From Cognatishimia sp. WU-CL00825 (lineage in GTDB: Bacteria; Pseudomonadota; Alphaproteobacteria; Rhodobacterales; Rhodobacteraceae): a stretch of DNA of 64,000 nt. Shown here piece by piece: positions 40,974 through 62,229 of the stretch. Location of the stretch: the NCBI RefSeq assembly GCF_040364665.1, contig NZ_BAABWX010000001.1, positions 1,922,001 to 1,986,000 of the forward strand. Reading direction: 5' to 3'. A program made the position numbers and the translations under genes. The notes beneath the pieces are model-generated. The model ran no database searches. It had not been told where the DNA came from and saw only the letters and a program-made list of their open reading frames with translations. The first letter of the stretch is position 1. Every line of letters starts with the position of its first letter.

Positions 40974-40983
40974 GGTGCGCTCC

Positions 40984-43487: not shown

Positions 43488-44225
43488 CTAGTGCGACAGC
43501 ACTTGGTCCAAGAAGTTGCGCGTGCGCTCATTTTTGGGTGCGTTGAAAAAACTCTCGGGATCGCTTTCTTCAATGATGGTGCCCGCATCCATAAAGATCA
43601 CACGATCTGCCACTTTGCGCGCAAATCCCATTTCGTGGGTCACGCAGATCATGGTCATGCCCTCTTCGGCCAGTGTTGTCATAACATCCAGCACTTCGCC
43701 GATCATTTCAGGGTCTAGCGCTGACGTTGGTTCATCAAACAACAGAATTTCCGGCTTCATGCAAAGCGCGCGTGCAATGGCAACGCGTTGTTGTTGCCCA
43801 CCAGAAAGTTGACCTGGGTATTTTTCTGCCTGGTTATCAATCTGCACTTTGGTTAGGTAGCCCATCGCCAATTCTTCGGCGTCAGACTGAGACATCTTGC
43901 GCGCCAACATTGGAGCAAGGGTGCAATTTTCAAGAATTGTCATATGCGGGAACAAGTTGAAATGCTGAAAGCACATCCCAACTTCACGCCGCATTTCTTC
44001 AATATTTGGCGCGTCTGCATTGATGGGCTCGCCATTGATCAAAATGTCCCCAGACTGGTGTTCTTCCAGTTGGTTAATCGTGCGGATCATCGTGGACTTA
44101 CCTGACCCAGACGGCCCGCAAACTACGATCTTTTCACCTTTGGCAACGGATAAATTGACGTCTTTTAGGGCGTGAAAAGTTCCATAGAACTTGTTCACGG
44201 ACTTCATTTGTACGGCGGCTGTCAT
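43488..44225 (-). CDS. Amino-acid ABC transporter ATP-binding protein (AapP/GlnQ type)
   Basis: ATPase of a polar amino-acid importer, 245 residues. Walker A is [10 protein letters not shown] (about 36-45), the Q-loop [15 protein letters not shown], the signature [15 protein letters not shown], Walker [15 protein letters not shown] and the switch [10 protein letters not shown]. The ATG at 44225 follows GGGAG. No permease or receptor gene is next to it. The only matching set, at 58853-62181, lacks an ATPase, so the two probably form one transporter. It is the last gene of the operon that starts with the FAD oxidoreductase. Confidence 0.93.
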
Positions 44226-44239
44226 CGATATTCTCCCTG

Positions 44240-44590
44240 TTAGGTTTGGCCTATTTCTGCGGCGACCACTATTATTTCTACTTTCAATGCATCGCGGGCG
44301 AGTTTTGCCTCTCCACACGCGCGCGCGGGGGCATGACCTGCGGGGACCCACATGTCCCAAACGGCGTTCATTTCAGCAAAGTCTGCCATGTCTGATAGCC
44401 AAACTATGGCTTGCAAAATGTGGCTGCGATCAGAGCCAGCTTCGCGCAAAAGCCCATCAACACGTGACAAACAATCTTGGGTTTGTTCCGCGACCGTATC
44501 GCCTGCACCCACCTGTCCACAAAGGTAAATTGTACCGTTGTGCTTGACGATCTTGCTCATACGTTCGCCTGTGTGCATCCGTTCGATCAT
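44240..44590 (-). CDS. RidA family enamine/imine deaminase
   Basis: RidA proteins hydrolyse reactive enamines and imines such as 2-aminoacrylate, which PLP beta-eliminases release. The 116-residue protein has the fold markers [14 protein letters not shown] and [19 protein letters not shown]. The catalytic arginine is probably in [20 protein letters not shown]. The ATG at 44590 follows GGAG and overlaps the acyl-CoA synthetase stop by 4 bp. Its presence fits the C-S lyase at 56031 and the FAD amine oxidase in this operon, both of which would generate such intermediates. Confidence 0.9.
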
Positions 44591-46506
44591 GCAGGTTCTC
44601 CAATTAAATTACGCGCAACCAAAGCGTCGGAAATTTCGTTAAGAATAGCCGGATCGTCGATCGCCGCCGGCATTTTATAACTTACACCATCTGCGATTTT
44701 TTGCATCGTCCCGCGCAACACTTTGCCAGAACGTGTTTTAGGCAGACGTTGGACCTGAACTGCAATCTTGAAGGCTGCGACAGCTCCGATTTTGGAACGT
44801 ACGAGTTTGACCAATTCCTTTTCAAGAATATCCGCCTCGCGGTCCACATTGTCATTTGTAACAAAGAAGCCGAGAGGCATTTGCCCTTTTAGGGCATCTG
44901 CAGCCCCAACAACCGCACATTCGGCGATATCAGGGTGGCTTGAAATGACTTCTTCCATGGCCCCGGTAGACAGGCGGTGGCCTGCAACATTGATGATATC
45001 ATCTGTGCGCGCCATGATGAAAACATAGCCGTCTTCGTCGATAATGCCGGCGTCAGAAGTGGCGTAATAGCCGGGAAACTCTTGCATATATGACGTGTGG
45101 AACCGATCCTTGGCTTTCCAAAGCGTTGGAAAACCGGATGGGGGCAAAGGCAATTTGCAGACGATATTTCCCAAAGAGCCGTTGGGCACTTCGTTGCCTT
45201 CGTCATCCAATACCTGAATGTCATAACCCGGCATCGGTTTGCCCGGAGAGCCGAGTTTAATCGGAAATGCGCCAAGGCCCACTGGATTGCCGGACATTGC
45301 CCACCCGGTTTCTGTTTGCCACCAATGATCAATGACCGGCCGTTCGAGATGGTCTTGCGCCCAAGTGATCGTCGCCGGATCAGAGCGTTCGCCCGCCAAG
45401 AACAAGGTGCGGAAATTGCTAAGGTCATATTGCGCAATAAGAGCACCGGTTGGGTCTTCTTTTTTGATCGCACGGAAGGCGGTAGGTGCCGTAAACAGCG
45501 CAGCAACTTTGTGGTCTTGGATAACACGCCAAAATGCGCCTGCATCAGGCGTGCCGACCGGTTTGCCTTCGTAGACCACTGTGGCGCAGCCGTGCAGAAG
45601 TGGTCCGTAACAAATGTAGGAATGGCCAACGACCCAGCCCACATCAGAGGCGGCCCAAAACACATCGCCGGGGGTCAAACCATAGTGGTATTGCATGCTC
45701 CATTTCAGGGCGACCATATGGCCACCGTTGTCACGCACCACACCCTTTGGTTGGCCCGTCGTGCCAGAGGTATATAGAATATACAGCGGGTCTGTGGCGG
45801 CGACTGGTACACATTCTGTGCTTTGGCCCGTCTCAATTGCTGAGCCGACAGCTTGGGCGTAATCGATGTCTCGCCCCGCGACCAAAGTGCAAAGCTGCGT
45901 CTCTCGTTGCAAAATGACGCAATGCTTTGGTTTGTTTTCTGACAGCTCGATTGCCGCATCCAACAGAGGTTTATAGGCGATCACCCGCCCCGGTTCGATG
46001 CCACAGGACGCAGAAATGATGGCCTTGGGGGCCGCGTCATCAATGCGTGTGGCAAGCTCTTGCGCTGCAAACCCACCAAACACAACCGAATGAATGGCCC
46101 CAAGGCGTGCGCAGGCCAGCATCGCAAAAATGGCTTCGGCGACCATCGGCATATAAATCACAACGCGATCGCCTTTGGCCACGCCACTTTGACGTAACAC
46201 AGCCGCAAGCGCACCAACCTGAGTTTGCATTTCAGCAAAAGTATAGCTGGCAGATCCCCCGGTTACCGGGCTGTCATAGATCAAGCCGGTACGGGCACCT
46301 TGGCCTGCCTCGACATGGCGATCTATGCAGTTATAGCAGGTGTTGCAGGTCGCGCCGTCAAACCAGCGGCCATAAGCCCCTTTTTCCGCATTGAAGGTCT
46401 GGGTTGCAGGAGAAAACCAATCGATATCCTCGGCAGCTTTCGCCCAAAAGTCCACGGGATTGGCTTGCCAATCAGCATATGTTTCTGCGTAGCGTGACAC
46501 GGTCAT
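44587..46506 (-). CDS. Acyl-CoA synthetase of the propionyl-CoA/acetyl-CoA synthetase family (PrpE-like)
   Basis: Activates a short-chain carboxylate to its CoA thioester through an acyl-AMP. The 639 residues have the AMP-binding motif [13 protein letters not shown], the WWQTETGW site and the C-terminal catalytic lysine in [12 protein letters not shown]. The N-terminus [24 protein letters not shown] and the YNCIDRH segment resemble PrpE, so propionate or a 3-substituted propionate is more likely than acetate. It sits inside the hyu operon, 4 bp after the SDR gene, and suggests the pathway ends in a short acid that is CoA-activated. Confidence 0.88.
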
Positions 46507-46510
46507 CCCC

Positions 46511-47266
46511 TTAACAGGTATAGTTCATGCCGAGACGTCCGCCGTCGACATAGATGGTTTCGCCAGTGATGTAGCTTGATTTTTGGGAGCATAAGAAGGC
46601 CACAACGTCGCCAATTTCACGTGCGCCGCCGACCCGTTGCAACGGTGTGCGAGACATCACCATTTTCATGGCGTCTGGGTTTGCGTTCACCCCCGCCATC
46701 ATTTCGGTGTCGATGGAACCAGGGCCTACAGCGTTCACACGGATATTGTGTTTGGCCAAGGAAAGCGCTGCAGCCTTTGTCAGTTGGTTCACCCCGCCTT
46801 TGGAGGCGCAATAAGCCGGGATTGAAGGTATAGCGACCTGGGCATTGATCGAGGACATATTGACAATTGCCCCCTCGATGCCTTTGGCCAACATCGTATT
46901 TGCGACGCGCTGCATGGCGATAAATACGCCGCGCAGATTCACATTTAACACGCTCTCAAAGGCGTCCAGATCATAGGAAAGAAAGTCGCCCGGCTTGGCA
47001 ATGCCTGCATTATTCACAAGGGCCGAAATCGGACCAATATCAGCTTCGATATGATCGATGACAGCATTGATTTCAGTGATATCACCCATATCACATTTCA
47101 GACCGATGGCGTCTGCACCGAGTTTTTCGGCTGCGGCTTTAGCCCCTGCTTCGTTGATATCAGAAAGCACCACGCGATAGCCGTCTTCGGCAAGGGCTTC
47201 GGCACAAGCGTAGCCAATGCCCTGGGCAGCGCCCGTTACAAGTGCAATTGGTTTATCGTTCATCAT
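46511..47266 (-). CDS. Short-chain dehydrogenase/reductase
   Basis: NAD(P)-dependent SDR, 251 residues. The cofactor motif TGAAQGIG is at about 12-19, the NNAG motif at LVNNAGIAKPG, the catalytic serine in NMSSINAQ and Y-x-x-x-K in YCASKGG. It fits the FabG-like classical group, and the C-terminal region SYITGETIYVDGG is usual for it. Substrate is unknown; in this operon it could reduce or oxidise a keto/hydroxy intermediate. Confidence 0.88.
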   Translation of the reverse strand: MMNDKPIALVTGAAQGIGYACAEALAEDGYRVVLSDINEAGAKAAAEKLGADAIGLKCDMGDITEINAVIDHIEADIGPISALVNNAGIAKPGDFLSYDLDAFESVLNVNLRGVFIAMQRVANTMLAKGIEGAIVNMSSINAQVAIPSIPAYCASKGGVNQLTKAAALSLAKHNIRVNAVGPGSIDTEMMAGVNANPDAMKMVMSRTPLQRVGGAREIGDVVAFLCSQKSSYITGETIYVDGGRLGMNYTC

Positions 47267-47275
47267 CTTTTCCTA

Positions 47276-48922
47276 TTATTCTTCAAAACCGTAGTCAGAT
47301 TTTGCTTGTTCTTTTGTGATCAATCCGGCCGCGAGATCGTCGGCAATGCGGGCGGTTTCGCGCGCCCTTGGATCGCCGTAACCGCCGCCGCCGGGCAAAC
47401 TGAGTTTGAGACGCTGGCCTGATTTCACCAATTGCCGGCCTTTGCTCCGCAGTTTGGTGCCGTCGGCCAATTCGACGTTGCCTTTGGCCCCTGGCCCGCC
47501 GCCATCGCGGCCCCGTGCCGGGTTTTCGACACGATCAAACATAGCGTTGAAATAGATGTCATAGCCGTCACGCGGCTCGATTTCGATCATCTGACCGAGC
47601 CCTCCGCGCAATGCGCCAGCGCCACCCGAGCCTTCGCGCAGGTCTTTGCGCCAAATGGTGATCGGGCCAACATGTTCAGTGGCTTCAACGCTCATGGTTG
47701 ACACGCCTGATGGAAAGGCTGTTGCTGACAGACCATCCAATGCTGGACGGGCGCCTGTGCCACCCGAATTGAACATCAGCACTTCTTTGTTGGGCAAATT
47801 GCTGTCTGGATCGCTTGCCCGTGCGGAGATCTGGATGTTCCAAAGGGCGCTTGCGCCTTCTGCTGGTACGGTATTGGGCAAAGCTTGGTGCAACGCGCCC
47901 AACACAACATCAGGAACGAGATGCCCAAGGACGTGGCGCACCGACACGGGCGCAGGTCGCTTGGCGGCTAGGATACAGCCTTCGGGCGCGGTGATTTCAA
48001 AGGGCTCAAGCGAGCCAGTGTTGTTGGGCACCTGAGGCGCGATTGCACATTTCAGACCATAACACGCATAAGCGCGGGTATAGACTTCGGGCACGTTGAC
48101 GCCAAAACGGCTCATGCCAGAGGTGCCATCAAAATCTGCTTTGATTTTGTCGCCTGAAATATCGAGACTGACCACCATTTGCACTGGAGCGTCATAACCA
48201 TCAACCTGCATGCTGTGCTGGAAACTGCCGTCAGGCACTTTAGCAATCGCCTCGTGGGTGGCTTTGCGGCTTGTTTCGATGATAAATTCAGACAGACCTT
48301 CGAGGTCAGCAATGCCAAATTCGCCCATCATGGTTTGCAGCCGACGATCGCCCGCTTCGTTGCAAGCGGCTAAGGAATACAGATCCCCGACCACTTGATC
48401 CGGTTCGCGTACATTGGCACGCACAATGCTGATTAGATGCTGCGCAACGGTGCCACGCTCGGCAAACTTCATGATGGGGATCAAAAGCCCCTCTTCATAA
48501 ACTTCGTTCCCATCCGGGCCAAAACCGCGACCGCCGATATCAACAACATGCGCTGTGCAAGCAAAGAACCCGATATGGACACCGTCGCGGAATGTTGGCG
48601 AAACCACGGTGATATCGTGCAAATGCCCGGTGCCAAGCCATGGGTCATTGGTGATAAAAACGTCGCCTTCGTAAGTGTTCTGAAGGCCGATTTCGCGCAC
48701 AAAATGAGTCACGCTTTCAGCCATCGCATTTACATGGCCTGGTGTTCCGGTAACCGCTTGGGCAAGCATGCGCCCTTGGCGGTCAAACAGGCCCGCTGAC
48801 AGATCGCCTGCTTCGCGCACCGATGTGGAAAAGGCCGTGCGAATAAGGGTAGTCGCTTGTTCTTCGACCACTGCAATAAGGCGGTTCCACATGACCTGAA
48901 AGTCAATTGCTGTAGGGCTCAT
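47276..48922 (-). CDS. hyuB: Hydantoinase/oxoprolinase subunit B
   Basis: Partner of HyuA in ATP-dependent opening of cyclic amides such as N-methylhydantoin, 5-oxoproline or their relatives. The 548 residues match HyuB: DFQVMWNRLIAVVEEQATTLIRTAFSTSVREAGDLSAGLFD, then FITNDPWLGTGHLHDITVVSP, YEEGLLIP and the C-terminal LPGGGGYGDP. It overlaps hyuA by 4 bp. The family also includes acetone and acetophenone carboxylase subunits, so ring opening is not proven. Confidence 0.92.
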   Translation of the reverse strand: MSPTAIDFQVMWNRLIAVVEEQATTLIRTAFSTSVREAGDLSAGLFDRQGRMLAQAVTGTPGHVNAMAESVTHFVREIGLQNTYEGDVFITNDPWLGTGHLHDITVVSPTFRDGVHIGFFACTAHVVDIGGRGFGPDGNEVYEEGLLIPIMKFAERGTVAQHLISIVRANVREPDQVVGDLYSLAACNEAGDRRLQTMMGEFGIADLEGLSEFIIETSRKATHEAIAKVPDGSFQHSMQVDGYDAPVQMVVSLDISGDKIKADFDGTSGMSRFGVNVPEVYTRAYACYGLKCAIAPQVPNNTGSLEPFEITAPEGCILAAKRPAPVSVRHVLGHLVPDVVLGALHQALPNTVPAEGASALWNIQISARASDPDSNLPNKEVLMFNSGGTGARPALDGLSATAFPSGVSTMSVEATEHVGPITIWRKDLREGSGGAGALRGGLGQMIEIEPRDGYDIYFNAMFDRVENPARGRDGGGPGAKGNVELADGTKLRSKGRQLVKSGQRLKLSLPGGGGYGDPRARETARIADDLAAGLITKEQAKSDYGFEE

Positions 48923-51006
48923 GCTGTGTCTCCTTTACGGCGCAAAAGCAAACTTCCGTCGCCCTGACCAATGGCCCGATAAGCCGAGGTCACAATGGTG
49001 GTTGTTTCATTTTCAACAATGACCGCGGGGCCTTCGGCCACAGCTCCTGGCGTCATGGCAGAGCGGGCGATTTCGCGAGCGGTGACCTGTTTCCGTTGGG
49101 CCGCGTCATAAAACGAACGGCTGCGCAGTTCCTCGGCGGGTTTGCCTGCCCCGTGAGGCGTCACACGATCAACGTCGGGCAGTACCGAAGCAACCACCAG
49201 TGACCAATTCGTGATTTCGATAGGCAGGCCATCAATAATGCGTCCAAAGAGCGTTTGATATGCGGCTTCAAATGCCACCAGGATCTCTGCTTTGTCTGCA
49301 TCTGCGAACTCTTTGTAAGGCAGAGAAACCGGGATTTCCCAGCCTTGGCCAGAGTAGCGCATAAAGGCGGTGAGCCGCGAGGTTTTAGGCGCGTCTTTGG
49401 CCCCTGCTTCGACAAACAGGCGCGCTTCGTTTTCGAGTTCCTGCAATGCTGCATTGACAGCTTGGGCGTCAAATTGGTGCAAGTGCTGAAACAGGCCGCG
49501 GGTGGCCTCATAGCTGAATGGAGCTTTCAGAAAACCGATGGCAGAGCCAACCCCGGCACCGGGCGGGATGAGCAGATCGTCGATCCCAAGTTTTTCGCAC
49601 AGCCGACAGGCGTGTAATGGGGCACCGCCGCCAAAGCCGATCATGGTGAAATGTTCGATATCACGCCCGTTTTCCACAGTATGGACCCGTGCGGCATTTG
49701 CCATATTTTCATCGACCATTTCGGTCACGCCAAAGGCCGCATCTTCGGTGCTTGTGCCAAGTTCATCAGCAAGTTTCGCCGCAATGGCGCTGTCGGAATT
49801 TGCCGCTGAAAGCGGAATGGCCCCGCCAGCAAAGTTGTCGGGGTCCAGACGACCAAGCAGCAGATTTGCATCTGTTACCGTGGGTTCTGTACCACCCTTT
49901 TGATAGCAGGCGGGTCCGGGCTCGGATGCGGCTGATCTGGGTCCAACCTGAATGCGGCCTAAAGAGTCGATGGAAGCAATTGAGCCGCCCCCGGCCCCAA
50001 TTTCAACCATTTCAACCACCGGCGTGGACACGGTCATTCCGGAGCCTTTTTTGAAACGATAGGTACGGGCCACTTCGAAGGTATTAGCGGTTTTGGGCGC
50101 GCCGTCTTCAATAAGGCAAATTTTTGCAGTTGTGCCGCCCATGTCAAAGGAAAGCACTGAATTCAGACCATGTGCTCTGGCGAAATCTGCGGCAAAAATC
50201 GCCCCGCCAGCGGGGCCGGATTCAAGCAAGCGCACCGGCTGTTCCGCAGCGGTTTCAACTGAAATCAAGCCACCGCCTGAATGCAACATAAAGACTGGTG
50301 CATCCAGCCCTTCTTCGGTCAAGCGTGCCACCAGACGGCCAAGGTAGTCAGCGACCTGCGGCTGAACATAGGCGTTTGCAATCACGGTATTGAACCGCGG
50401 CAATTCCCGCATTTGTGGTGAAATCACCGACGAAATCGAAATCGACAATTCCGGAGCCGCAGCCCGAAGTGCCTCTGCCATCTGAACTTCGTGCGCGTTG
50501 TTGGCATAGGAATGCATCAACCCGATAGCGACGGCTTCATAGTCGCCAGCGAGCACGGTTTGTACCATTTCGTCGACTTCGGCAGGATCTAGCGGCAACA
50601 AAACCTCGCCGTTTGGCCCCATGCGTTCGTTCAACGTCAGACGATCTTGGCGAGGCACCATCGGTTTGGGGAGCGACAGGTTCAGGTCATATTGCTCAAA
50701 GCGGTTCTCTGAGCGCATTTCGATCACATCGCGAAAGCCTTCGGTGGTGATAAAGGCCAATTTTGCGCCGCGACGTTCGATCAGCGCATTGGTGACAAGC
50801 GTTGTCCCATGGATAACTTGACCAATATCATTCAGGGCGATGCCCGCCTTTTCAGCCGCCAGCTTAATGCCGTCCAAAATGGCTTGCTCTGGGTGGCTGT
50901 AGTTCGTCAACACTTTGCAGGTTGAAAGCCCACCAGAGTATTGCAGCGCAACGTCGGTAAATGTACCTCCGATATCTACGCCAATACGGTTCATTGATGT
51001 TGTCAT
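48919..51006 (-). CDS. hyuA: Hydantoinase/oxoprolinase subunit A
   Basis: ATP-binding subunit of the hydantoinase/oxoprolinase pair, 695 residues. The N-terminal phosphate motif is RIGVDIGGTFTDVALQ (about 7-22). VIHGTTLVTNALIERRGAKLAFITTEGFRDVIEM, the metal-binding DMGGTTAKICLIEDG and IGAGGGSIASID are also diagnostic. The full-length, intact pair HyuAB implies a cyclic amide or lactam (possibly a sulfur-bearing ring such as a thiazolidinone) as a pathway intermediate, which is an inference. It follows the FAD oxidoreductase gene by 5 bp. Confidence 0.93.
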   Translation of the reverse strand: MTTSMNRIGVDIGGTFTDVALQYSGGLSTCKVLTNYSHPEQAILDGIKLAAEKAGIALNDIGQVIHGTTLVTNALIERRGAKLAFITTEGFRDVIEMRSENRFEQYDLNLSLPKPMVPRQDRLTLNERMGPNGEVLLPLDPAEVDEMVQTVLAGDYEAVAIGLMHSYANNAHEVQMAEALRAAAPELSISISSVISPQMRELPRFNTVIANAYVQPQVADYLGRLVARLTEEGLDAPVFMLHSGGGLISVETAAEQPVRLLESGPAGGAIFAADFARAHGLNSVLSFDMGGTTAKICLIEDGAPKTANTFEVARTYRFKKGSGMTVSTPVVEMVEIGAGGGSIASIDSLGRIQVGPRSAASEPGPACYQKGGTEPTVTDANLLLGRLDPDNFAGGAIPLSAANSDSAIAAKLADELGTSTEDAAFGVTEMVDENMANAARVHTVENGRDIEHFTMIGFGGGAPLHACRLCEKLGIDDLLIPPGAGVGSAIGFLKAPFSYEATRGLFQHLHQFDAQAVNAALQELENEARLFVEAGAKDAPKTSRLTAFMRYSGQGWEIPVSLPYKEFADADKAEILVAFEAAYQTLFGRIIDGLPIEITNWSLVVASVLPDVDRVTPHGAGKPAEELRSRSFYDAAQRKQVTAREIARSAMTPGAVAEGPAVIVENETTTIVTSAYRAIGQGDGSLLLRRKGDTA

Positions 51007-51011
51007 GATCT

Positions 51012-52286
51012 TCAGATGCTCTTGAGGATTTGATTTGCGGTAAAGGCGGTCTGATACACGCGCGACATGATCGGCGCTGTTGGGACCGTGGATAAGGCTG
51101 TGATTGGCAGCGGCAGGTCTGTGCGATCCATACCGGTCAGAAGGTCTGACATGGTTTGGCCAAACAGCGTGCCAGTGGTGATGCCGCGTCCATTATAGCC
51201 AATGGCAGTAAACAGGTTGTCTTCCAGCTCATAGATTCGCGGCAGGTGATCCGGTGTCATGGCGATTTGGCCATGCCAGGCTTCTTCAAACTCGACCGGT
51301 CCCAATGTTGGAAAGATACGCGCAAGCTGTTTGCGTGCCCAGCGCTGTGACAGCCCTGAATATGGATCGCCAAACACCTTGCCCATGCTGCCAATGATCA
51401 ACCGATCATATGCATCACGACGCAGGTTAAACATTATGGAACCGGTGTCCCAAAGCCCCTGCCGTTGGGGGAATATATGTGCGGCCTCTGGGCCAAGTGG
51501 TTTGGTGGCAAGCTGGAAGTAGTGGATTTTGGTGAAGACGCGGTTCAGCTTCGGCCAAAGAGTGTCAGTATAGGCATTGGTGCCCAAAATCACGGATTTT
51601 GCGGTGACAGTCCCCTGATCTGTATCGACCTTCCAAAGCGCGCCGTCCTTGCGCAGTTTGGTTGCTGTGACGCCGGTGCTGATTTTCGCACCGGCGCCTA
51701 TCGCAGCTCGCGCGAGGCCGCGGCAATAGCCCATCGGATTGATCATTCCCGCACGCTGATCGACCAACCCGCCAAAAAACGATGTGGTGCCAATCAGTTC
51801 GGAAACTTGTTCGCGGCTGAGTAAATCAACGGGCTCGCCTAACCGTTGCCACTCGTTGTGGCGGTCTTGCAGCTCTTTGAACCCTGCGGGCGAATGCGCG
51901 GCATGAATGGTGCCAACGCGCGCTGCCTCACATTGCATCTGGTGTTTCTCGACGAGAGAGTAGACGACTTCCGGCCCCAGCCCAAAACGCTTGATGAAGC
52001 GCGGTCCATAAACTTCGCCCAGTTTCTCGCGGACCTGCTGTGGTGGCAGCCACAAGGCGGCGTTCACAAATCCGCAATTGCGACCAGATCCGCCAAAGCC
52101 AATTTGCTGGCTTTCAAGAACATAGGTCGACAGGCCTTTTTCGGCACAGTGTAATGCAGAAGACAAACCCGTATAGCCGCCTCCGACAATCGCAACGTCA
52201 ACTACGGCATCAACCGCCAGGGGGGCGCGAATGTCTCGCTCAAGTGCCGAAGCATCCCAAAGCGAAATTGCAGACTTGCCTGTCAT
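51012..52286 (-). CDS. FAD-dependent amine/amino-acid oxidoreductase (DAO family)
   Basis: A 424-residue flavoprotein of the D-amino-acid-oxidase/glycine-oxidase group, similar to PuuB-type enzymes that oxidise secondary or primary amines. The FAD motif DVAIVGGGYTGLSSALHCAEKG is at about 31-52. FGGSGRNCGFVNAALW follows, and the C-terminal IGYNGRGITTGTLFGQTMSDLL. The ATG at 52286 is preferred over the frame start at 52364 because the latter would cover the promoter. It is the first gene of the operon running to 43488. Oxidation of an amine or of a saturated ring nitrogen is the likely reaction. Confidence 0.9.
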   Translation of the reverse strand: MTGKSAISLWDASALERDIRAPLAVDAVVDVAIVGGGYTGLSSALHCAEKGLSTYVLESQQIGFGGSGRNCGFVNAALWLPPQQVREKLGEVYGPRFIKRFGLGPEVVYSLVEKHQMQCEAARVGTIHAAHSPAGFKELQDRHNEWQRLGEPVDLLSREQVSELIGTTSFFGGLVDQRAGMINPMGYCRGLARAAIGAGAKISTGVTATKLRKDGALWKVDTDQGTVTAKSVILGTNAYTDTLWPKLNRVFTKIHYFQLATKPLGPEAAHIFPQRQGLWDTGSIMFNLRRDAYDRLIIGSMGKVFGDPYSGLSQRWARKQLARIFPTLGPVEFEEAWHGQIAMTPDHLPRIYELEDNLFTAIGYNGRGITTGTLFGQTMSDLLTGMDRTDLPLPITALSTVPTAPIMSRVYQTAFTANQILKSI

Positions 52287-52335
52287 ATTTAAGAATCTCC
52301 GGTCATCAAGTTTGAATTGCACAAGACGTGCTGAA

Positions 52336-52364
52336 AGGTTGCACGATCCAGATAGTTGTGTCAA
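52336..52364 (-). promoter_or_regulatory. Predicted promoter of the FAD oxidoreductase-hyu operon
   Basis: TTGACA (52364-52359) followed by CA, a 17-bp total spacer and CAACCT (52341-52336). The layout matches the predicted promoters at 55975-56003 and 62230-62258, which also begin TTGACACA and have a -10 of the form CANYCT. Confidence 0.55.
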
Positions 52365-52377
52365 TATCCGAAATAAG

Positions 52378-52396
52378 CGTTCTATATATCAACACA
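52378..52396 (+). promoter_or_regulatory. Shared leader element, copy 1 (rhodanese gene)
   Basis: CGTTCTATATATCAACACA lies directly before the GGAG ribosome site of the rhodanese gene. It matches the copies before the BisC-type gene (55943-55961) and the ABC receptor gene (62196-62214) at 15 of 19 positions each. It may be an operator or a transcript leader element. Confidence 0.6.
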
Positions 52397-52407
52397 GGAG
52401 CAATAAT

Positions 52408-52812: not shown

Positions 52813-52817
52813 GGCGT

Positions 52818-53588: not shown

Positions 53589-53607
53589 TGTCTACTCATC
53601 CAATTTT

Positions 53608-55929: not shown

Positions 55930-55931
55930 GC

Positions 55932-55962
55932 GCTTCCCTTTTTGTGCCGTTATATAAAACGT
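55932..55962 (-). promoter_or_regulatory. Shared leader element, copy 2 (BisC-type gene)
   Basis: On the reverse strand this 31-bp stretch matches the leader of the ABC receptor gene (62185-62215) at 27 positions without gaps, ending in the ribosome site AGGGAAG. The 19-bp core (55961-55943) is CGTTTTATATAACGGCACA. A TGTGTCAA 21 bp further upstream is also shared with the rhodanese gene leader. Confidence 0.7.
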
Positions 55963-55974
55963 ATATACCATATG

Positions 55975-56003
55975 TTGACACATGTCTTTCGGACTGTCAT
56001 CCT
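55975..56003 (+). promoter_or_regulatory. Predicted promoter of the C-S lyase operon
   Basis: TTGACA (55975-55980), 17-bp spacer and CATCCT (55998-56003), with a start expected near 56010. It has the same TTGACACA and similar -10 as two other predicted promoters of the island. Confidence 0.55.
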
Positions 56004-56030
56004 CTGAAAAACACTTGATGCGAGAAAGAT

Positions 56031-57215
56031 ATGCCGCATTCTTCACAGAACCTATCAGATACGCTTGTACACATGGGCCGCCCTGCCCGAAAAGACGGTC
56101 GACACGTCAACCTTCCGTTGGAACTTGGCTCGACGATTGTTTTTGATACTCTGGATGCTTTCGAAGCAGCGCGTGATGCGCGCTATGAAAACGGCACTCA
56201 GTATTATGGACGATATGGCAACGAGGCCACGTTTCAGCTGGAACATATGCTGGCCGAATTAGAGCAAGCCGACGGCGTTTCGCTGACATCCTCTGGTGTG
56301 GCGGCCATTACCATAACGCTGCTCACCTTCGCGCAGCCTGGCAAGCATCTGTTGGTTGCTGACCATGTTTATGGCAATACCCGAAATTTTTGCGATGGCG
56401 TGTTGCGCCAGATTGGCGTTGAAACAGAATATTTTGACCCAATGATTGGCGCAGACCTTAGCAAGCTTATCCGCGACAATACCTGTGCAATCATGTTTGA
56501 AGCCCCCGGATCTGGAACATTTGAAATGCCGGATATCCGGGCTATTTCAGGCGTTGCGCGTGCGGCCAATATTCCTGCGATCCTTGACGGCACATGGGCC
56601 ACACCGGTGTTTTGCAATGCACTCACCTTGGGTGCCGATGTCGTTGTCGCGTCGATGTCAAAATATCTAAGCGGTCATTCGGATTGCATGCTGGGTATGA
56701 TCGCCTGCAATGCAAAGTACTTTGAAGACATTCGAAAGACTCTATTTGCGGTTGGTGACAAGACCGGCGCGCAGGAAGTGTTTCTTGCCCTGCGCGGCCT
56801 ACGTACCTTGAAAATGCGTATGCTTCATGTTGATCAAGCTGGGCGCGACATGGCGCAATGGCTGGGGCAACAACCCCAGGTGAAACGCATTCTGCATCCT
56901 GCGTTCGAAAGCTGCCCAGGGCACGCGTTTTGGAAGCGGGATTTCACGGGATCTGCAGGCTTGTTCAGCGTGGTTTTTCACCCCTGTGACAAAAGCCAAA
57001 TTCGGTCCTTTGTCGACGCGTTGCAACTGTTTGGCATTGGCGTCAGCTGGGGTGGTTACGAGAGCCTTGTTCTGCCTGTCACGCCGCAGCGCAATGCCGG
57101 CACTTGGGACGAAGACGGACAGCTTGTCCGGTTTAACATTGGCTTTGAAGAATTGGACAGCCTGAAAGCTGACCTGTCAAAGGCCTTGCCACTTTTGAAT
57201 ATTGCACCGGAGTAA
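56031..57215 (+). CDS. metC: Cys/Met-metabolism PLP enzyme, cystathionine beta-lyase-like
   Basis: PLP-dependent C-S lyase, 394 residues. The PLP lysine is K211 in ASMSKYLSGHSD. GTQYYGRYGNEATFQLEHMLAELE is the substrate-side segment, and YGNTRNFCDGVL the phosphate-binding region. It resembles MetC, which cleaves cystathionine, and also cystine or other S-substituted cysteines, giving a thiol or persulfide plus 2-aminoacrylate (then pyruvate and ammonia). Here it is first in an operon with a persulfide dioxygenase and divergent from an S-oxide reductase, so degradation of an S-substituted cysteine is more likely than methionine synthesis. Confidence 0.87.
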   Translation: MPHSSQNLSDTLVHMGRPARKDGRHVNLPLELGSTIVFDTLDAFEAARDARYENGTQYYGRYGNEATFQLEHMLAELEQADGVSLTSSGVAAITITLLTFAQPGKHLLVADHVYGNTRNFCDGVLRQIGVETEYFDPMIGADLSKLIRDNTCAIMFEAPGSGTFEMPDIRAISGVARAANIPAILDGTWATPVFCNALTLGADVVVASMSKYLSGHSDCMLGMIACNAKYFEDIRKTLFAVGDKTGAQEVFLALRGLRTLKMRMLHVDQAGRDMAQWLGQQPQVKRILHPAFESCPGHAFWKRDFTGSAGLFSVVFHPCDKSQIRSFVDALQLFGIGVSWGGYESLVLPVTPQRNAGTWDEDGQLVRFNIGFEELDSLKADLSKALPLLNIAPE

Positions 57216-57217
57216 CC

Positions 57218-57856
57218 ATGCAAAATAAGATCGACCATTTCGCCATTGGAGCGGATTCATTGGACCAAGGTGTCCTGGCGATGGAAAGCGTTTTGGGCGT
57301 GACCGTGCCACGCGGCGGCAAACATGACGCAATGAGCACGCACAATTGCGTCATGCAGTCCGGCAACGAAAGTTTTTTCGAGTTGCTTGCCATTGATCCT
57401 GAGGCACCGGCTGATCCCGGTCGCGCCCGTTGGTTCAGCATGGACGAGCAAGCCACAAAAGACCGTCTGAAACAGCGCCCACGCGCCCTGTGCTGGGTGG
57501 TCGGGACCGACGATTTGGATGCTGTGATCGCCGCGAGCCCCGTTGATTTGGGCGAAGTGGTATTGTTTACACGCGGCGACCGGTCCTGGCGTTTAACTGT
57601 CCCAAAAGACGGAAGCCTGCCAATGGGTGGCCTGTTGCCAGCATTTATCGAGTGGTCACCCGGACCGCACCCCAGCACGGGCCAACAGGATTTGGGCGTG
57701 AAGTTGTCAAAAGTTCAGTTGCAGCATCCAGAGCCAGAAACGCTTAGCAATATTTTGGAAGCGCTTCAGGTGAGCCACCTCGCAGAGGTCAGTGCAGGTG
57801 CCGCAGCACTTTCTTTCTCATTGCAAACGCCATGCGGTGATGTGGTCTTAGATTAG
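57218..57856 (+). CDS. VOC/glyoxalase-like domain protein
   Basis: A 212-residue protein of the glyoxalase-like group (Glyoxalase_3 type). It starts MQNKIDHFAIGADSLDQGVLAMESVLGVTVPRGGKHDAMSTHNCVM and contains NESFFELLAIDPEAPADPGRARWFSMDE, the usual pattern of this family, whose function is mostly unknown. It starts 2 bp after the C-S lyase gene and is followed 14 bp later by the persulfide dioxygenase gene. A role on a thiol adduct or on the ring product is possible but not shown. Confidence 0.8.
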   Translation: MQNKIDHFAIGADSLDQGVLAMESVLGVTVPRGGKHDAMSTHNCVMQSGNESFFELLAIDPEAPADPGRARWFSMDEQATKDRLKQRPRALCWVVGTDDLDAVIAASPVDLGEVVLFTRGDRSWRLTVPKDGSLPMGGLLPAFIEWSPGPHPSTGQQDLGVKLSKVQLQHPEPETLSNILEALQVSHLAEVSAGAAALSFSLQTPCGDVVLD

Positions 57857-57870
57857 CAGGGGCAATCGCT

Positions 57871-58752
57871 GTGCAACCAACGCTTCAACTTGAAAAACTA
57901 CCCGACGTGAAAGCTTTCTTTGACGATCAGTCAAATACGATCAGCTACCTTGTCATAGATCCCGCCAGCAACGCCTGTGCCATCATCGATACTGTTATGC
58001 AGTTTGACTATGCGGCCGGGCGATTGAGCTATGAGACTGCGGATGCGATTATCTCTGAAATAACCGCCCGTGGTCTTGATTTGGCTTGGATCATCGAAAC
58101 GCATGTGCACGCAGATCACCTGTCTGCCGCCCCCTATATTCAGGAAAAACTGGGCGGCAAGATTGGTATTGGTGAACATATTCTGACGGTTCAGGATACC
58201 TTCGGGAAAATCTTTAACGAAGGCACTGAATTTGCCCGTGACGGGAGGCAGTTTGACCAACTTTTCAAGGATGGTGACACCTATCAGGTTGGTTCTCTTT
58301 GTTGTGTGGCGCTACACACGCCCGGCCACACGCCTGCCTGTATGGTGCATTTGATGGGGAATGCCGCATTTGCGGGTGATACATTGTTCATGCCCGACGG
58401 AGGGTCAGCCCGTGCTGATTTCCCCGGCGGAGACGCGGGCGAACTTTACGATTCCATAGCGCGCGTTCTCGCATTGCCCGAAGAGATGCGGTTGTTTGTT
58501 TGCCATGATTACGGGCCAAACGGTCGTGCCATTGCTTGGGAAACCACCATCGGGGCGCAGCGGTCTGACAATATTCATGTTGGAAAAGGAACAAGCCGCG
58601 AACACTTTATTGCGATGCGTGAAACCAGAGATGCGCAATTGGCGGTACCAAAGCTCATCATCCCTTCGCTGCAGGTGAATATGCGAGCGGGTGAGGTTCC
58701 AAAGGACACCGATGGCAATATGGTTTTGAAAGTTCCGATCAACAAACTATAA
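57871..58752 (+). CDS. Metallo-beta-lactamase-fold persulfide dioxygenase (ETHE1/Blh-like)
   Basis: Oxidises glutathione persulfide to sulfite with iron and O2 in characterised relatives. The 293-residue protein has ETHVHADHLSAAPY (H78, H80, D82, H83), LHTPGHTPACM, AFAGDTLFMPDGGSARADFPGGDAGELYDSI and HDYGPNGR, the pattern of the Blh branch. The start is a GTG at 57871 after AGGGG. It is last in the C-S lyase operon and ends at a strong terminator. It would remove persulfide formed when the lyase acts on a disulfide substrate such as cystine. Confidence 0.88.
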   Translation: MQPTLQLEKLPDVKAFFDDQSNTISYLVIDPASNACAIIDTVMQFDYAAGRLSYETADAIISEITARGLDLAWIIETHVHADHLSAAPYIQEKLGGKIGIGEHILTVQDTFGKIFNEGTEFARDGRQFDQLFKDGDTYQVGSLCCVALHTPGHTPACMVHLMGNAAFAGDTLFMPDGGSARADFPGGDAGELYDSIARVLALPEEMRLFVCHDYGPNGRAIAWETTIGAQRSDNIHVGKGTSREHFIAMRETRDAQLAVPKLIIPSLQVNMRAGEVPKDTDGNMVLKVPINKL

Positions 58753-58774
58753 GAATTATCCGATTTCCATAAAC

Positions 58775-58812
58775 AAAAAGCCCGGACAAGAAAAATCTGG
58801 TCCGGGCTTTTT
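58775..58812. terminator. Bidirectional rho-independent terminator
   Basis: AAAAAGCCCGGAC (58775-58787) and GTCCGGGCTTTTT (58800-58812) form a perfect 13-bp stem with A- and T-tracts on both strands. It serves both the persulfide dioxygenase operon and the converging ABC permease operon. Confidence 0.95.
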
Positions 58813-58852
58813 ATTGGAGCAGTGATCAGAGCAAAGGGCTCTGACCATTTTT

Positions 58853-59944
58853 TTAGCGGGCAGAAACGCTCATACGTCCTTTAAGATACTCACCGTATTG
58901 CCCCAACGAGAAGATGAAAGCCCAATAGATTAGGGCCACAAATACATAAACTTCGATGAAGTACGGAGCCCATTCAGCTGTACCAAAGGCAGCGTTGGCT
59001 GAAGCTAAGATATCAAAGAAACCGATGATGATCACAATCGCAGTCTCTTTGAATGTCACAACAACCATGTTGATTGTTGCCGGCAATGCATGTCGGAATA
59101 CTTGCGGCAAAACAATCTTTGACAGAATGTTTAGATAGGACAAACCGAGCGCTCGGCCAGCTTCGAATTGCCCCTTCGGGATCGCCTGAAATCCGCCGCG
59201 GAACACTTCAGCTTGATAGCAGGCAAAGAACAACGCAAAGGCGATGATGACACGCCAGATCTTGTCGCCTTGCAACCAGTCTGGCAGCAAGATTGGCACC
59301 ACAACCGCCGCTGTGAACAGGGTTGTCAAAAGCGGCAAAGATCTGATGAAATCGATGACAAGCGACGCGAAACTGCGCACCACGGGCATTTCTGACCGGC
59401 GCATCAACGCAAGGCCTAGCCCCATTGGCATGCCCAACAGAACGACCGAGGCGAACAGAAAGAGGGTCAAAGACAGCCCGCCCCATTGGTCTGTTGTAAT
59501 CTGGGTCAGGCCTAAAAGCGACCCATCCATCAAGAGATAGTACGCAGCAAAGCCCAAAATCCACAGGATGGACAATCGTTTGCCCGTCCAGGTCCATGGA
59601 AAACAAGAGGCAATAACGGTGCCGATGATTGCAATGCACGCTAATGTCGAGCGCCAATGTTCATCAAACGGATAAAGGCCAAAGAGGATGAGACGGTGGC
59701 GGGCTGCGATAACTGACCAACACGCGCCACTGTCATGGCCGCAATTGGCGACGTCTTCGGCCCGCCAGACCGCTGTCAAGACGGCCCAGTCCAAGGCAAG
59801 CCAAGCGATATAAGCCAGTACACCAAAGACAAACGCAGAAATCAGGCTATCTTGGATCGAACCAAAGGCGCGTTTCCGCAATTTGGCGACGAATTTTTCC
59901 ATTCTACCAGGAGAACTTGGGGAGGATGTAACTGCCATCGTCAT
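58853..59944 (-). CDS. Amino-acid ABC transporter permease (AapM-like)
   Basis: Second permease of a general L-amino-acid importer of the Aap/Bzt type, 363 residues. It has an N-terminal membrane region with a periplasmic loop (RAEDVANCGHDSGACWSVIAARHRLILFGLYPFDEHWRS), the AapM hallmark. The C-terminal EAA loop is FRGGFQAIPKGQFEAGRALGLSYLNILSKIVLPQVFRHALP. The ATG at 59944 lies just after the aapQ-like stop. There is no ATPase gene after it; the operon ends at the terminator near 58800. Confidence 0.92.
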   Translation of the reverse strand: MTMAVTSSPSSPGRMEKFVAKLRKRAFGSIQDSLISAFVFGVLAYIAWLALDWAVLTAVWRAEDVANCGHDSGACWSVIAARHRLILFGLYPFDEHWRSTLACIAIIGTVIASCFPWTWTGKRLSILWILGFAAYYLLMDGSLLGLTQITTDQWGGLSLTLFLFASVVLLGMPMGLGLALMRRSEMPVVRSFASLVIDFIRSLPLLTTLFTAAVVVPILLPDWLQGDKIWRVIIAFALFFACYQAEVFRGGFQAIPKGQFEAGRALGLSYLNILSKIVLPQVFRHALPATINMVVVTFKETAIVIIIGFFDILASANAAFGTAEWAPYFIEVYVFVALIYWAFIFSLGQYGEYLKGRMSVSAR

Positions 59945-59946
59945 GA

Positions 59947-61080
59947 TCAATGCGCCTTTAGTTGCATACGCGCATTCAGCCAGTTGACGAATTGCGCAAT
60001 AGAGAAGTTAACCAAGAGGAAAGCCCCCATCAAAATCGCGATCAATTCAAGAGTTTGACCCGACTGCGTGATGGATGTGGATACAATGTAAAACAGATCA
60101 GAGAAGCCGATTGCGACGCCAATCGTTGTGGCTTTCATGATGAATATCCACTGATTTCCCAGGGGGGGGATAACTGTTCTGAGCGCCATTGGCATCTTGA
60201 TACGGCTCCAGATTTGCCCGGAACTCAACCCGACCGCCTGCCCGGCTTCGATCAAACCCGTGGGAACCTGTTTAAGTCCCCCGCGCACAACTTCGGCGAT
60301 ATAGGCAGACCCGTAGAGCACGATGGAAATGATCATTGCCACAAATTCAATTGAAACAGTCAGACCGCCGACAAAGCGCAGACCTTTCAGCTCTGGTGTC
60401 GAAACCGCCGCCTCGCCGGCAGGAACCAAAATCAACGCCGCCAGCACAATCATGGCTAGCGTGCCGCCGGCCCAAATGGCAAACAGCTTGCCAAGCTTGA
60501 CCTTCCGCAGGAAGAGCATCACCAGCAAAAGGATGGAGGCCAGCGCAATCCAGACGCCATATTGGACATCGACGTTCAACGTCGGGATCATCATGCCGCG
60601 GTTGGAGAGAAAGACTGAATCTCCCAAGCTTAGCGCCTGACGCGGCCCCGGCATGTGAATGCAAATTGCGTACCAAAAAACCAGTTGCAAGATGAGCGGA
60701 ATATTTCGGAATGTCTGCACAAATACCGAAGCCGCAGAAACAAGCGCCAAGTTTTTCATGTCGCGCATCGTCCCGATCAAAAAACCCAGAATGGTCGAGA
60801 GCACAATACAAATGCCGCCCAAAAACAACGAGTTCATAAAGCCGATTGTCAGCGTACGCGCATAGGTGTCGTCAATGTTGCGATCGATCAAAGAAAAGGA
60901 ATATGCCCAGCCTGTTGAGCGTTCCAGAAAACCGTAGCCACTTGTAATGCCAAGCGCCGCCAAATTGGTGCGTGCACTTGAAATCGTTGTCCAAATGAAG
61001 ACCACAGTGCCAAGTATTATAAGGGATTGGATAATAAGCCGACGTCGACGCGCGCGGGCGCGCAATTCCGCTGCAGACAT
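59947..61080 (-). CDS. Amino-acid ABC transporter permease (AapQ-like)
   Basis: First permease of the same importer, 377 residues. The N-terminal loop NLAALGITSGYGFLERSTGWAYSFSLIDRNIDDTYARTLTIGFMNSLFLG is typical of AapQ/BztB. The EAA loop reads VRGGLKQVPTGLIEAGQAVGLSSGQIWSRIKMPMALRTVIPPLGNQW. The ATG at 61080 follows GGAGG. It is separated from the receptor gene by 69 bp holding a hairpin. Confidence 0.93.
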   Translation of the reverse strand: MSAAELRARARRRRLIIQSLIILGTVVFIWTTISSARTNLAALGITSGYGFLERSTGWAYSFSLIDRNIDDTYARTLTIGFMNSLFLGGICIVLSTILGFLIGTMRDMKNLALVSAASVFVQTFRNIPLILQLVFWYAICIHMPGPRQALSLGDSVFLSNRGMMIPTLNVDVQYGVWIALASILLLVMLFLRKVKLGKLFAIWAGGTLAMIVLAALILVPAGEAAVSTPELKGLRFVGGLTVSIEFVAMIISIVLYGSAYIAEVVRGGLKQVPTGLIEAGQAVGLSSGQIWSRIKMPMALRTVIPPLGNQWIFIMKATTIGVAIGFSDLFYIVSTSITQSGQTLELIAILMGAFLLVNFSIAQFVNWLNARMQLKAH

Positions 61081-61102
61081 GGTTTCCTCCGTAAAGAAAT
61101 GA

Positions 61103-61128
61103 GGTCACCCCAATGGTAAGGGGTGACC
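61103..61128 (-). terminator. Perfect hairpin between the ABC receptor and permease genes
   Basis: GGTCACCCC and GGGGTGACC form a perfect 9-bp stem with an 8-nt loop. Only a weak T-rich stretch follows on the reverse strand. It probably attenuates transcription or stabilises the receptor mRNA. Confidence 0.7.
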
Positions 61129-61149
61129 AGTGCATGTTGGAAGGATCAA

Positions 61150-62181
61150 TTAGTCTAGTTGTGGAGCGTAAAGCACGCCGCCATGGCTCCAGAGATTGTT
61201 CAGACCGCGCTCGAGGTTATATGGGCTATTTTCGCCGATATTGCGGTGGTAGATCTCTGCATAGTTGCCCACTGCAGCAATCATTTCACGCGCCCATGTA
61301 TCACGCAGGCCAAGACGTTCACCCATGCCTGGGTCAACGCCCAGCAGACGTGCAACTTTTGGGTTTGGTGGGTTTGCCGCCATTTCGTGGACATTCGCCG
61401 AAGTGATGCCCTCTTCTTCTGCAATCAAAAGAGAAGCCAACATCCAGTTAACGACGTCAACGAACTCTTCATCGCCCTGACGCATCGCTGCAGCAATCGG
61501 CTCGGAGGAAAGCTGATCGTTCAGGATGGTATGGGCGTTGGGATTATCCATCTCTGTGGCACGAAGGACGGCAAGGAATGGGCCCCAAGCGGCAAATGCA
61601 TCACAGCGATTTGCAAGATACGCGGCACGCAGTTCAGAGGCTTTTTCGTATGAAACCACAGTCACATCGGTATCGATGGACTTCAGGTAGTTCGCTGAAA
61701 TACGTTCGATCGTAGTACCGGCTTCGACGCATACTGTGCCGCCTGCCAGATCTTTTGCATCCGTGATGCCCAGATCGCCGTGCGCCATAAACTGTGCGCC
61801 GCCAAAGAAGTAAGGCAGAGAGAACTGCAGACCCAGTTCAGTGTCGCGGCCCATGGTCCAACCGGTTGCCTTGATGATCACATCAACATCACCAGATTGC
61901 AGCGCCGGGAAGCGTTGAGCCCAACTCAGCGGCACGATCTGGGCTTTGCTTGGATCGCCCAAAATGGCGGTGGTCAGCGCGCGGCACATGTCAATGTCCA
62001 AACCCTTCCACTCGTTTTTGTCGTTTACTTCAACAAATCCAAAATAGCTGCCGTTGTGGCCGGAACAAAGCATGGTTCCACGATCTTCAATTTGCTGCAC
62101 GGTCGCACTTTTCGCTGCCACCATGTTTGGTGCTGTTAAACTAAGAGCAGCTAGCGCGCCTACAAGTCCAAGGTATTTCAT
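61150..62181 (-). CDS. Amino-acid ABC transporter substrate-binding protein (AapJ-like)
   Basis: Periplasmic receptor, 343 residues, with a Sec signal peptide cut after VAAKS-type residues (about 23). The mature protein matches AapJ/BztA: IEDRGTMLCSGHNGSYFGFVEVNDKNEWKGLDIDMCRALTTAILGDP, AGTTIERISANYL and GENSPYNLERGLNNLWSHGGVLYAPQ at the C-terminus. Relatives bind a broad set of L-amino acids, and the context here suggests a sulfur-containing one. The ATG at 62181 follows AGGGGAAG. It is first in the J-Q-M operon. Confidence 0.93.
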   Translation of the reverse strand: MKYLGLVGALAALSLTAPNMVAAKSATVQQIEDRGTMLCSGHNGSYFGFVEVNDKNEWKGLDIDMCRALTTAILGDPSKAQIVPLSWAQRFPALQSGDVDVIIKATGWTMGRDTELGLQFSLPYFFGGAQFMAHGDLGITDAKDLAGGTVCVEAGTTIERISANYLKSIDTDVTVVSYEKASELRAAYLANRCDAFAAWGPFLAVLRATEMDNPNAHTILNDQLSSEPIAAAMRQGDEEFVDVVNWMLASLLIAEEEGITSANVHEMAANPPNPKVARLLGVDPGMGERLGLRDTWAREMIAAVGNYAEIYHRNIGENSPYNLERGLNNLWSHGGVLYAPQLD

Positions 62182-62184
62182 TTG

Positions 62185-62215
62185 GCTTCCCCTGTTGTGC
62201 TGTTATATGAAACGT
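62185..62215 (-). promoter_or_regulatory. Shared leader element, copy 3 (ABC receptor gene)
   Basis: Reverse-strand 31-bp stretch ending in AGGGGAAGC, identical at 27 positions to the leader of the BisC-type gene. The 19-bp core (62214-62196) is CGTTTCATATAACAGCACA. It lies downstream of the predicted transcription start, so it could act as a repressor site or within the mRNA. Confidence 0.7.
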
Positions 62216-62229
62216 TTGTATCGCTATTA

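Follow-up and report, generated by a model that had tools for sequence, protein, structure and literature searches.

The window, a 64,000-nucleotide stretch of the genome of Cognatishimia sp. WU-CL00825, contains a block of 16 genes at positions 43488–62181, which was evaluated as a candidate catabolic regulon for a sulfur-containing amino acid. The genes were assigned with Pfam and NCBIfam models. The assignments matched the naming of the initial annotation, whose gene content, split importer and internal IclR-family regulator were borne out by these models and by the layout of the block in five transcription units. Unit i, on the minus strand, was DAO–HyuA–HyuB–SDR–PrpE–RidA–ATPase. Unit ii (plus strand) consisted of rhodanese, and unit iii (minus strand) of BisC and IclR. 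Unit iv (plus strand) contained a cystathionine-beta-lyase-type gene (CBL), a Glyoxalase_3 gene (VOC) and a persulfide-dioxygenase-like gene (PDO), and unit v (minus strand) contained a periplasmic binding protein (SBP) and two permeases. The ABC importer was split, with SBP and both permeases in unit v and the ATPase at the end of unit i.

DAO (51012–52286, minus strand; PF01266), for which the ATG at 52286 is the likely start, was a pipecolate-oxidase-like FAD amine oxidase. Its nearest model was the L-pipecolate oxidase AmaA (NF050086), with 430.9 bits against a curated cut-off of 600. According to the fold search, its predicted fold resembled the glycine, sarcosine and proline oxidases, that is, oxidases of small and cyclic amino acids, and among its fold neighbours were proline dehydrogenase and a sarcosine oxidase structure that contains L-thioproline. 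HyuA (48919–51006, minus strand; PF01968 and PF05378) and HyuB (47276–48922, minus strand; PF02538) were the predicted alpha and beta subunits of an ATP-dependent lactamase/hydantoinase. They exceeded the gathering scores of Hydantoinase_A (289 bits), Hydant_A_N (163 bits) and Hydantoinase_B (480 bits), and by sequence are members of the hydantoinase/oxoprolinase superfamily. The best solved relatives of HyuA were N-methylhydantoinase (7hk5) and 5-oxoprolinase (6yra), and by analogy HyuAB would open a ring with ATP. For the caprolactamase models CapA and CapB (NF050156 and NF050157), the scores were 444.7 and 192.6 bits, under the cut-off of 1000; caprolactamase, a HyuAB relative, opens caprolactam with ATP according to the available passages of PMC6061476. 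The unit continued on the minus strand with the SDR oxidoreductase (46511–47266; PF13561), a PrpE/Acs-like short-chain acyl-CoA synthetase (44587–46506), a RidA/L-PSP-type enamine/imine deaminase (44240–44590; PF01042, 82 bits) and the ATPase of a PAAT-type amino-acid ABC importer (43488–44255; PF00005). The PrpE-like ligase reached 729 bits for the NCBIfam propionate–CoA ligase model (cut-off 955) and 682.2 bits for TIGR02316 (PrpE; curated cut-off 827.4), and the best NCBIfam model for the ATPase was GlnQ (314.5 bits, cut-off 379).

The rhodanese (52408–52812, plus strand; PF00581) had a single domain. IclR (52818–53588, minus strand) contained the IclR domains PF01614 and PF09339, both above their Pfam thresholds, and its best NCBIfam model was the glyoxylate regulator BhcR (NF045644; 154.5 bits, cut-off 350). 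BisC (53608–55929, minus strand; likely GTG start at 55929) was a molybdenum S-oxide reductase of the BisC/dimethyl sulfoxide (DMSO) reductase family and matched TIGR00509 over nearly its full length with 861.6 bits, under the cut-off of 1017.55. The best solved matches were DMSO reductase (1eu1) and a trimethylamine N-oxide reductase entry (7l5i). The residues aligned with Tyr114, Trp116 and Ser147 of 1eu1 were kept; in this family the serine is the Mo ligand, and the tyrosine and tryptophan belong to the active site. No export signal was visible by eye in the BisC protein sequence. Hence, BisC should be cytoplasmic and act after import. CBL (56031–57215, plus strand), a pyridoxal-phosphate (PLP) C–S lyase of the cystathionine-beta-lyase type, scored 398.6 bits for TIGR01324, above the curated cut-off of 365.9, a match that does not fix its natural substrate; two further homologues in the same genome were 32% identical. 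The VOC protein (57218–57856, plus strand) exceeded the PF13468 gathering score of 25.1, and a confident structure model had the VOC fold. The fold search with this model reached the superfamily level only (HPPD, methylmalonyl-CoA epimerase and 3p8a), at which no reaction is assignable, and a sequence search of the PDB gave no match. PDO (57871–58752, plus strand; PF00753) was an MBL-fold protein with a partial match to the Blh persulfide dioxygenase model (NF040641; 351.1 bits, cut-off 625), in which the dioxygenase half alone was aligned. Permease 2 (58853–59950) and permease 1 (59947–61080), both PF00528, and SBP of family 3 (61150–62181; PF00497), whose best solved relative was 4z9n (268 bits), completed the block on the minus strand.

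A 19-base operator-like element with the pattern TGTGYYRWTATATRRAACR matched the window, at up to two mismatches, at 52378, 55943 and 62196, and the sites ended 11–14 nt ahead of the start codons of rhodanese, BisC and SBP. The mean for shuffled windows was 0.03 matches, and none of the 100 shuffles had three. The pattern was derived from its three sites, which have zero mismatches by construction; the test therefore lies in its absence elsewhere and in the relatives. In the whole 3.62 Mb genome, the same three block promoters were the only matches at this threshold, and the backward-pattern control gave two. The link between the units by a shared leader element, proposed in the initial annotation, thus held genome-wide, because the unit promoters carry an element that is absent elsewhere at up to two mismatches, as a shared operator of one regulon should be.

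A matrix trained on the regions upstream of rhodanese and CBL in relatives, with a score of at least 12 taken as a site, ranked the three element sites first in the window and then inverted copies at two of the promoters. At the DAO/rhodanese divergent promoter, the element found by pattern and matrix (52374–52396, minus strand) was joined by a weaker inverted copy (52357–52379, plus strand; score 16.6), which overlapped the DAO-direction TTGACA. At the BisC/CBL divergent promoter, the element (55943–55965, plus strand; pattern and matrix) was joined by an inverted copy (55960–55982, minus strand; score 20.3), which overlapped the CBL-direction TTGACA. Because the second copies cover the TTGACA of the opposite gene, DAO or the lyase, one bound regulator could control both directions. 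At the SBP promoter, the element (62196–62218, plus strand; pattern and matrix) may be accompanied by a second weak copy (62217–62239, plus strand), the score of which was 10.2, seventh in the window and under 12.

In relatives, the element was located upstream of 40 of 47 rhodanese genes and 37 of 38 CBL genes, both being training regions and not independent. Outside the training regions, it was found upstream of SBP in 29 of 31 cases: 7 of 9 in the locus set (L011 and L016 were without it) and 22 of 22 among scorable SBP genes from a search of 24 carrier genomes, which yielded 23 genes (one, L118, was cut). Control regions were almost free of it (HyuB 0/81, PrpE 0/34, ATPase 0/32, RidA 0/26, PDO 0/15, permease 2 0/29 and SDR 1/60), as were letter shuffles (4/1700) and stretches within genes (0/595). 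Regions upstream of IclR reached the site score in 13 of 47 cases. Three of 40 VOC upstream regions carried the element (L032, L037 and L052); in these loci the lyase was lost and the VOC gene adjoined the promoter. Hence, the element stays with the unit, since loci without the lyase bring VOC up to it.

Shared promoters had also been proposed to link the units. A sigma-70 scan of 52200–62700 gave 6 promoter-like sites against 7.9 expected from shuffles, so no excess was observed, although the ATATTGACACA block next to the element was seen again in relatives, ahead of CBL and, on the opposite strand, ahead of DAO. At gathering scores, no Rfam family matched the window. The reading of the element as an RNA leader was set aside on this result and on the position of the element at divergent promoters, which makes it better read as a DNA operator.

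The genomic context of the gene set was explored in 80 loci, the best HyuA matches from a capped search of named genomes, each with at most 10 kb of flank per side; such a selection speaks for synteny but not for prevalence. A gene was counted as present when, at any position in the locus, its best matching stretch exceeded an identity threshold, whatever its length, and only homology-labelled genes were used because the gene caller mixed in antisense open reading frames. HyuB was found in all 80 loci, and 40 carried the lyase and/or the VOC gene (C–S loci). The co-occurrence that the initial annotation had called for as a check was clear in these 40 loci, the core genes being present in 36–40: HyuA, HyuB, SDR and IclR in 40, DAO and VOC in 39, the lyase in 37 and BisC in 36. 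The lyase count included two fragments (L011 and L013) and was 35 with a 40% length rule. Rhodanese was found in 32, PrpE, permease 1 and the ATPase in 31 each, permease 2 in 29, RidA in 24, SBP in 21 and PDO in 15, the transporter counts being lowered by contig and flank ends. When 24 carrier genomes were searched whole, 22 had a close SBP homologue, and L013 and L049 had none at E ≤ 1e-120. IclR is probably the natural binder of the element, because it was found in 40 of 40 C–S loci. Within the full set, HyuAB, SDR, IclR and VOC varied least.

In 29 loci yielding all seven proteins, the protein distances of HyuB, DAO, SDR, IclR, CBL and VOC correlated with those of HyuA (r 0.76–0.96; 0/999 permutations each). 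These sequence comparisons suggest that the cluster travels largely as a unit, and the block is supported as one co-regulated regulon. Carriers of the set belonged to Rhodobacteraceae/Roseobacteraceae, Hoeflea, Tepidamorphaceae, Roseibium, Rhodospirillales, Afipia, Granulosicoccus, Marinomonas and Vibrio. The lyase, VOC, ATPase, DAO, HyuA, HyuB and SDR genes stood in a row on one strand in two Marinomonas loci (L060 and L062). The BisC match in the L060 genome, Marinomonas colpomeniae, was 57% identical and had one in-frame TAG, which may point to an inactive copy or to a sequencing error. Marinovum algicola FF3 contained two copies of the block (L009 and L017), one on a 27 kb contig, and the element was present at both SBP genes (L106 and L120). 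In an unselected sample of 149 genomes of the family, one per genus and including the genome of the window, HyuA relatives of at least 65% identity were found in 8 of the 148 other genera and VOC relatives of at least 64% in 3 (G127, G063 and G107, the last a partial gene). The HyuA and VOC genes of G127 and G063 were about 6.2 kb apart on the same contig. The distribution of the cluster within the family is patchy.

Considering these results, the block was interpreted as a catabolic regulon under IclR control, whose substrate would be a cyclic sulfur amino acid with a secondary amine, frequently encountered in S-oxide form; this general scheme was given a probability of about 0.5. The initial annotation had proposed an amino-acid derivative that contains sulfur and may be cyclic or S-oxidised, and the enzyme set fits such a putative substrate. 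An oxidase of the pipecolate/sarcosine/proline-oxidase group next to HyuAB points to oxidation of a ring amine, after which the ring would be opened as a lactam. The PLP C–S lyase requires either cysteine itself or a cysteine-like product whose sulfur is substituted, and the DMSO reductase active-site residues kept in BisC would explain an S-oxide form of the substrate. The PAAT importer would take up the substrate, and cytoplasmic BisC would reduce the S-oxide where present. DAO would then oxidise the ring C–N bond to a cyclic imine, and SDR and HyuAB, in an order that is not fixed, would convert the hydrated imine into a lactam and open it with ATP. The lyase would split the C–S bond to give pyruvate, ammonia and a thiol, and the VOC protein would act on the thiol or another late product. 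PDO and rhodanese might deal with sulfane sulfur or sulfide, RidA might scavenge 2-aminoacrylate, and the PrpE-like ligase might activate a short acid, while IclR would bind the one element at three promoter regions.

Chondrine and thioproline are the best guesses for the substrate. Chondrine (1,4-thiazane-3-carboxylate S-oxide) occurs in red and brown algae. It would meet the demands of DAO, HyuAB, the lyase and BisC, and its reduced form, 1,4-thiazane-3-carboxylate, is the sulfur analogue of pipecolate. After pipecolate-like treatment of the ring, the lactam would be opened with ATP to S-carboxymethylcysteine, from which thioglycolate would be cleaved. Chondrine is the preferred compound, for which HyuAB would yield S-carboxymethylcysteine and the thiol would be thioglycolate, but taken alone it has a low probability. 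It is doubtful that the block is a first route by which marine bacteria use a thiazane amino acid from seaweed, for example chondrine, in which thioglycolate is broken down by a glyoxalase-fold enzyme in an undescribed reaction. Several carriers had algal names (Marinovum algicola, Epibacterium ulvae, Marinomonas algarum and Marinomonas colpomeniae), which lends weak support to chondrine. Cycloalliin was rejected as a substrate on chemical grounds, because a methyl group on its ring carbon adjacent to the nitrogen prevents formation of a lactam.

A number of observations weighed against the general scheme or against chondrine. Chondrine accounts poorly for the VOC, PrpE-like and PDO genes. The best specific models for DAO, BisC, PrpE, PDO and HyuAB (caprolactamase) all scored under their curated cut-offs. 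DAO–HyuAB was present without C–S genes in 13 loci with a full flank on the C–S side. The flanks were full on both sides in L022, L026, L034, L042, L043, L044, L047, L048, L068 and L071, and on the C–S side in L028, L056 and L064; several of the 13 also retained SDR, rhodanese or IclR. A close VOC gene elsewhere was found in none of 16 genomes without C–S genes at the locus, a search that took in 11 of the 13 DAO–HyuAB-only genomes; the two matches, at 41–46%, resembled family-wide paralogues. BisC above 49% was likewise found in none of the 16. In L041 (Hyphomicrobiales), SDR, HyuAB, CBL and VOC were kept, DAO and BisC were not in the locus, and an amidase and an oligopeptide-type importer adjoined it. 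No DAO relative was found in this genome at E ≤ 1e-30, an empty result that is weak. SDR can hardly be limited to the DAO product, because L041 keeps SDR without DAO. A BisC relative at E ≤ 1e-100 was not found in the L055 and L059 genomes, and the BisC relatives in the L065 and L041 genomes were only 44–47% identical. A CBL relative at E ≤ 1e-60 was not found in the L011, L013, L032, L037 and L052 genomes, again a weak empty result; the lyase was absent from the loci of the last three, and VOC was kept in four of the five.

Nine of the 40 loci without C–S genes ended early on that side (L006, L008, L015, L016, L039, L053, L061, L066 and L069), and some of them may be full clusters. On an unrooted HyuA tree, the full set was scattered and needed 13 changes, for which repeated loss of the C–S half and repeated transfer are both possible. 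Two Paracoccus loci were without BisC and had a class III aminotransferase after VOC (L083, 7814–9971; L065, 3793–6006). The reduction of the S-oxide and the oxidation of the amine thus seem to be steps by which only certain forms of the substrate enter the pathway. Because the DAO–HyuAB half occurs alone and some carriers lack a close S-oxide reductase, the gene set is modular and not one invariant pathway. Of the single pathway proposed in the initial annotation, the one regulon was supported by synteny and the element, whereas the invariant pathway gave way to a modular set. Neither a loss of synteny in relatives nor a genome-wide spread of the element, both named in the initial annotation as grounds for refutation, was observed.

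Thiazolidine-4-carboxylate (thioproline) or its S-oxide is the main rival substrate, of low probability, and would explain stand-alone use of the DAO–HyuAB–SDR–rhodanese half. In this route, DAO and SDR would produce 2-oxothiazolidine-4-carboxylate, HyuAB would release cysteine, and CBL would be a cysteine/cystine lyase feeding rhodanese and PDO, the presence of which is thereby accounted for. To our knowledge, the S-oxide of thioproline is not known as a natural product; moreover, the VOC protein is left without a role and the nearest DAO model is an oxidase of a six-membered ring (pipecolate). On the other side, sarcosine oxidase, a fold neighbour of DAO, was solved with L-thioproline, and the available passages of a prodrug review (PMC6257297) describe conversion of oxothiazolidine carboxylate to cysteine by 5-oxoprolinase and of thioproline to cysteine by proline oxidase. 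The loci with the DAO–HyuAB half alone, the checked genomes without a close VOC gene and the 13 changes on the HyuA tree would also suit two pathways under one regulator, in which BisC, CBL and VOC act on S-alkyl-cysteine sulfoxides and DAO, HyuAB and SDR on an unrelated lactam or cyclic amine. This is rather unlikely, as one element is common to both halves, their protein distances co-vary, and Marinomonas holds both halves in a row on one strand.

The thiol released could instead be cysteamine, from S-2-aminoethylcysteine or a relative, which would pass to hypotaurine and onward. The aminotransferase after the lyase and VOC genes in Paracoccus seriniphilus (L083), where the block lies on a 449 kb plasmid, was annotated as hypotaurine–pyruvate aminotransferase Tpa, and P. 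onchidii (L065) had a relative at the same place. However, the evidence is confined to these two loci, the L065 protein passed no NCBIfam cut-off among the best 25 of 68 matched models, and no clear role would be left for DAO and HyuAB, so that this origin of the thiol is improbable. A non-amino-acid sulfoxide such as biotin sulfoxide, whose ureido ring would be opened by HyuAB, was suggested by the family name of BisC, and the HyuAB family acts on ureido-like rings. This substrate is very improbable, because the importer is of the polar amino-acid type, the PLP C–S lyase requires an amino acid, and beta-oxidation genes are not among the 16 block genes.

The block was compared with known systems. 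L-pipecolate oxidation in lysine breakdown (AmaA) likewise relies on a DAO-family FAD oxidase whose substrate is a cyclic imino acid and supplies the nearest named model, but the block DAO scored below its cut-off, as given above, and we know of no place in that route for HyuAB, a C–S lyase or an S-oxide reductase. The N-methylhydantoin/creatinine pathway uses HyuAB and a DAO-family sarcosine oxidase together. The block shares this pairing, and its best solved HyuA relative is the N-methylhydantoinase, whereas carbamoylsarcosine amidase is not among the 16 genes, which include sulfur enzymes instead. BisC/MtsZ-type enzymes are methionine or biotin sulfoxide reductases. BisC belongs to the same Mo enzyme family, with 1eu1 and 7l5i as the best solved matches, but lies under the TIGR00509 cut-off and in a catabolic regulon rather than a repair or respiratory setting. 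The caprolactamase CapAB pathway of Pseudomonas jessenii has the same type of HyuAB-family ATP-dependent lactam opening (passages of PMC6061476); the block proteins scored under its cut-off of 1000, and the CapAB pathway lacks the sulfur steps. The action of 5-oxoprolinase on 2-oxothiazolidine-4-carboxylate is a family precedent for opening a sulfur ring to cysteine, although the available passages of PMC6257297 concern a cysteine prodrug in animal cells.

Catabolic regulons specific for one substrate are a known kind of system. This gene set was not found described in open PMC papers, and no published account of it or of bacterial chondrine use was found among the matches listed, in agreement with the view of the initial annotation that no pathway with this exact set was known. 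If the proposed scheme is true, roseobacters, Marinomonas, Vibrio and relatives would possess an unrecognised marine route for dissolved organic sulfur and nitrogen. The block would give genetic access to cyclic sulfur amino acids, the turnover of which was not found described within the searches made, and would suggest a function for a family of glyoxalase-fold proteins that has none. The element would then serve as a marker for finding the regulon in other genomes.

Other settings of HyuAB were also observed. In L036 (10001–18069), and also in L030 and L053, HyuAB 77–81% identical to that of the window adjoined a D-amino-acid-dehydrogenase-like oxidase, so that almost the same HyuAB serves another purpose there. 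Three more genes there (about 504, 163 and 334 aa) had sizes as in a TctABC transporter, which is a guess; neither of the two scanned gave an NCBIfam match. A HyuAB clade about 60% identical (L084–L086, L070 and L073–L080) occurred in Pseudomonas, Rhizobium, Shinella and Paracoccus, and the annotated plasmid loci L084–L086 had an FAD-binding oxidoreductase and an amino-acid importer near HyuAB. No tRNA genes were found in the window. The copper exporter CopA and the regulator CueR flanked the block (40563–43332). Their relatives (63% and 71–72%) lay near HyuAB in L054 (about 100–2800) and L068 (about 13900–16700), both without C–S genes, and this proximity may be due to chance. A sulfatase-family hydrolase was located at 38839–40485, with PehA as the nearest model at a score below the cut-off. 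On the other side, the LysR gene upstream of the block was followed, on its own strand, by a terminator-like stem at 62607–62624; hence, the LysR gene probably lies outside the binding-protein unit.

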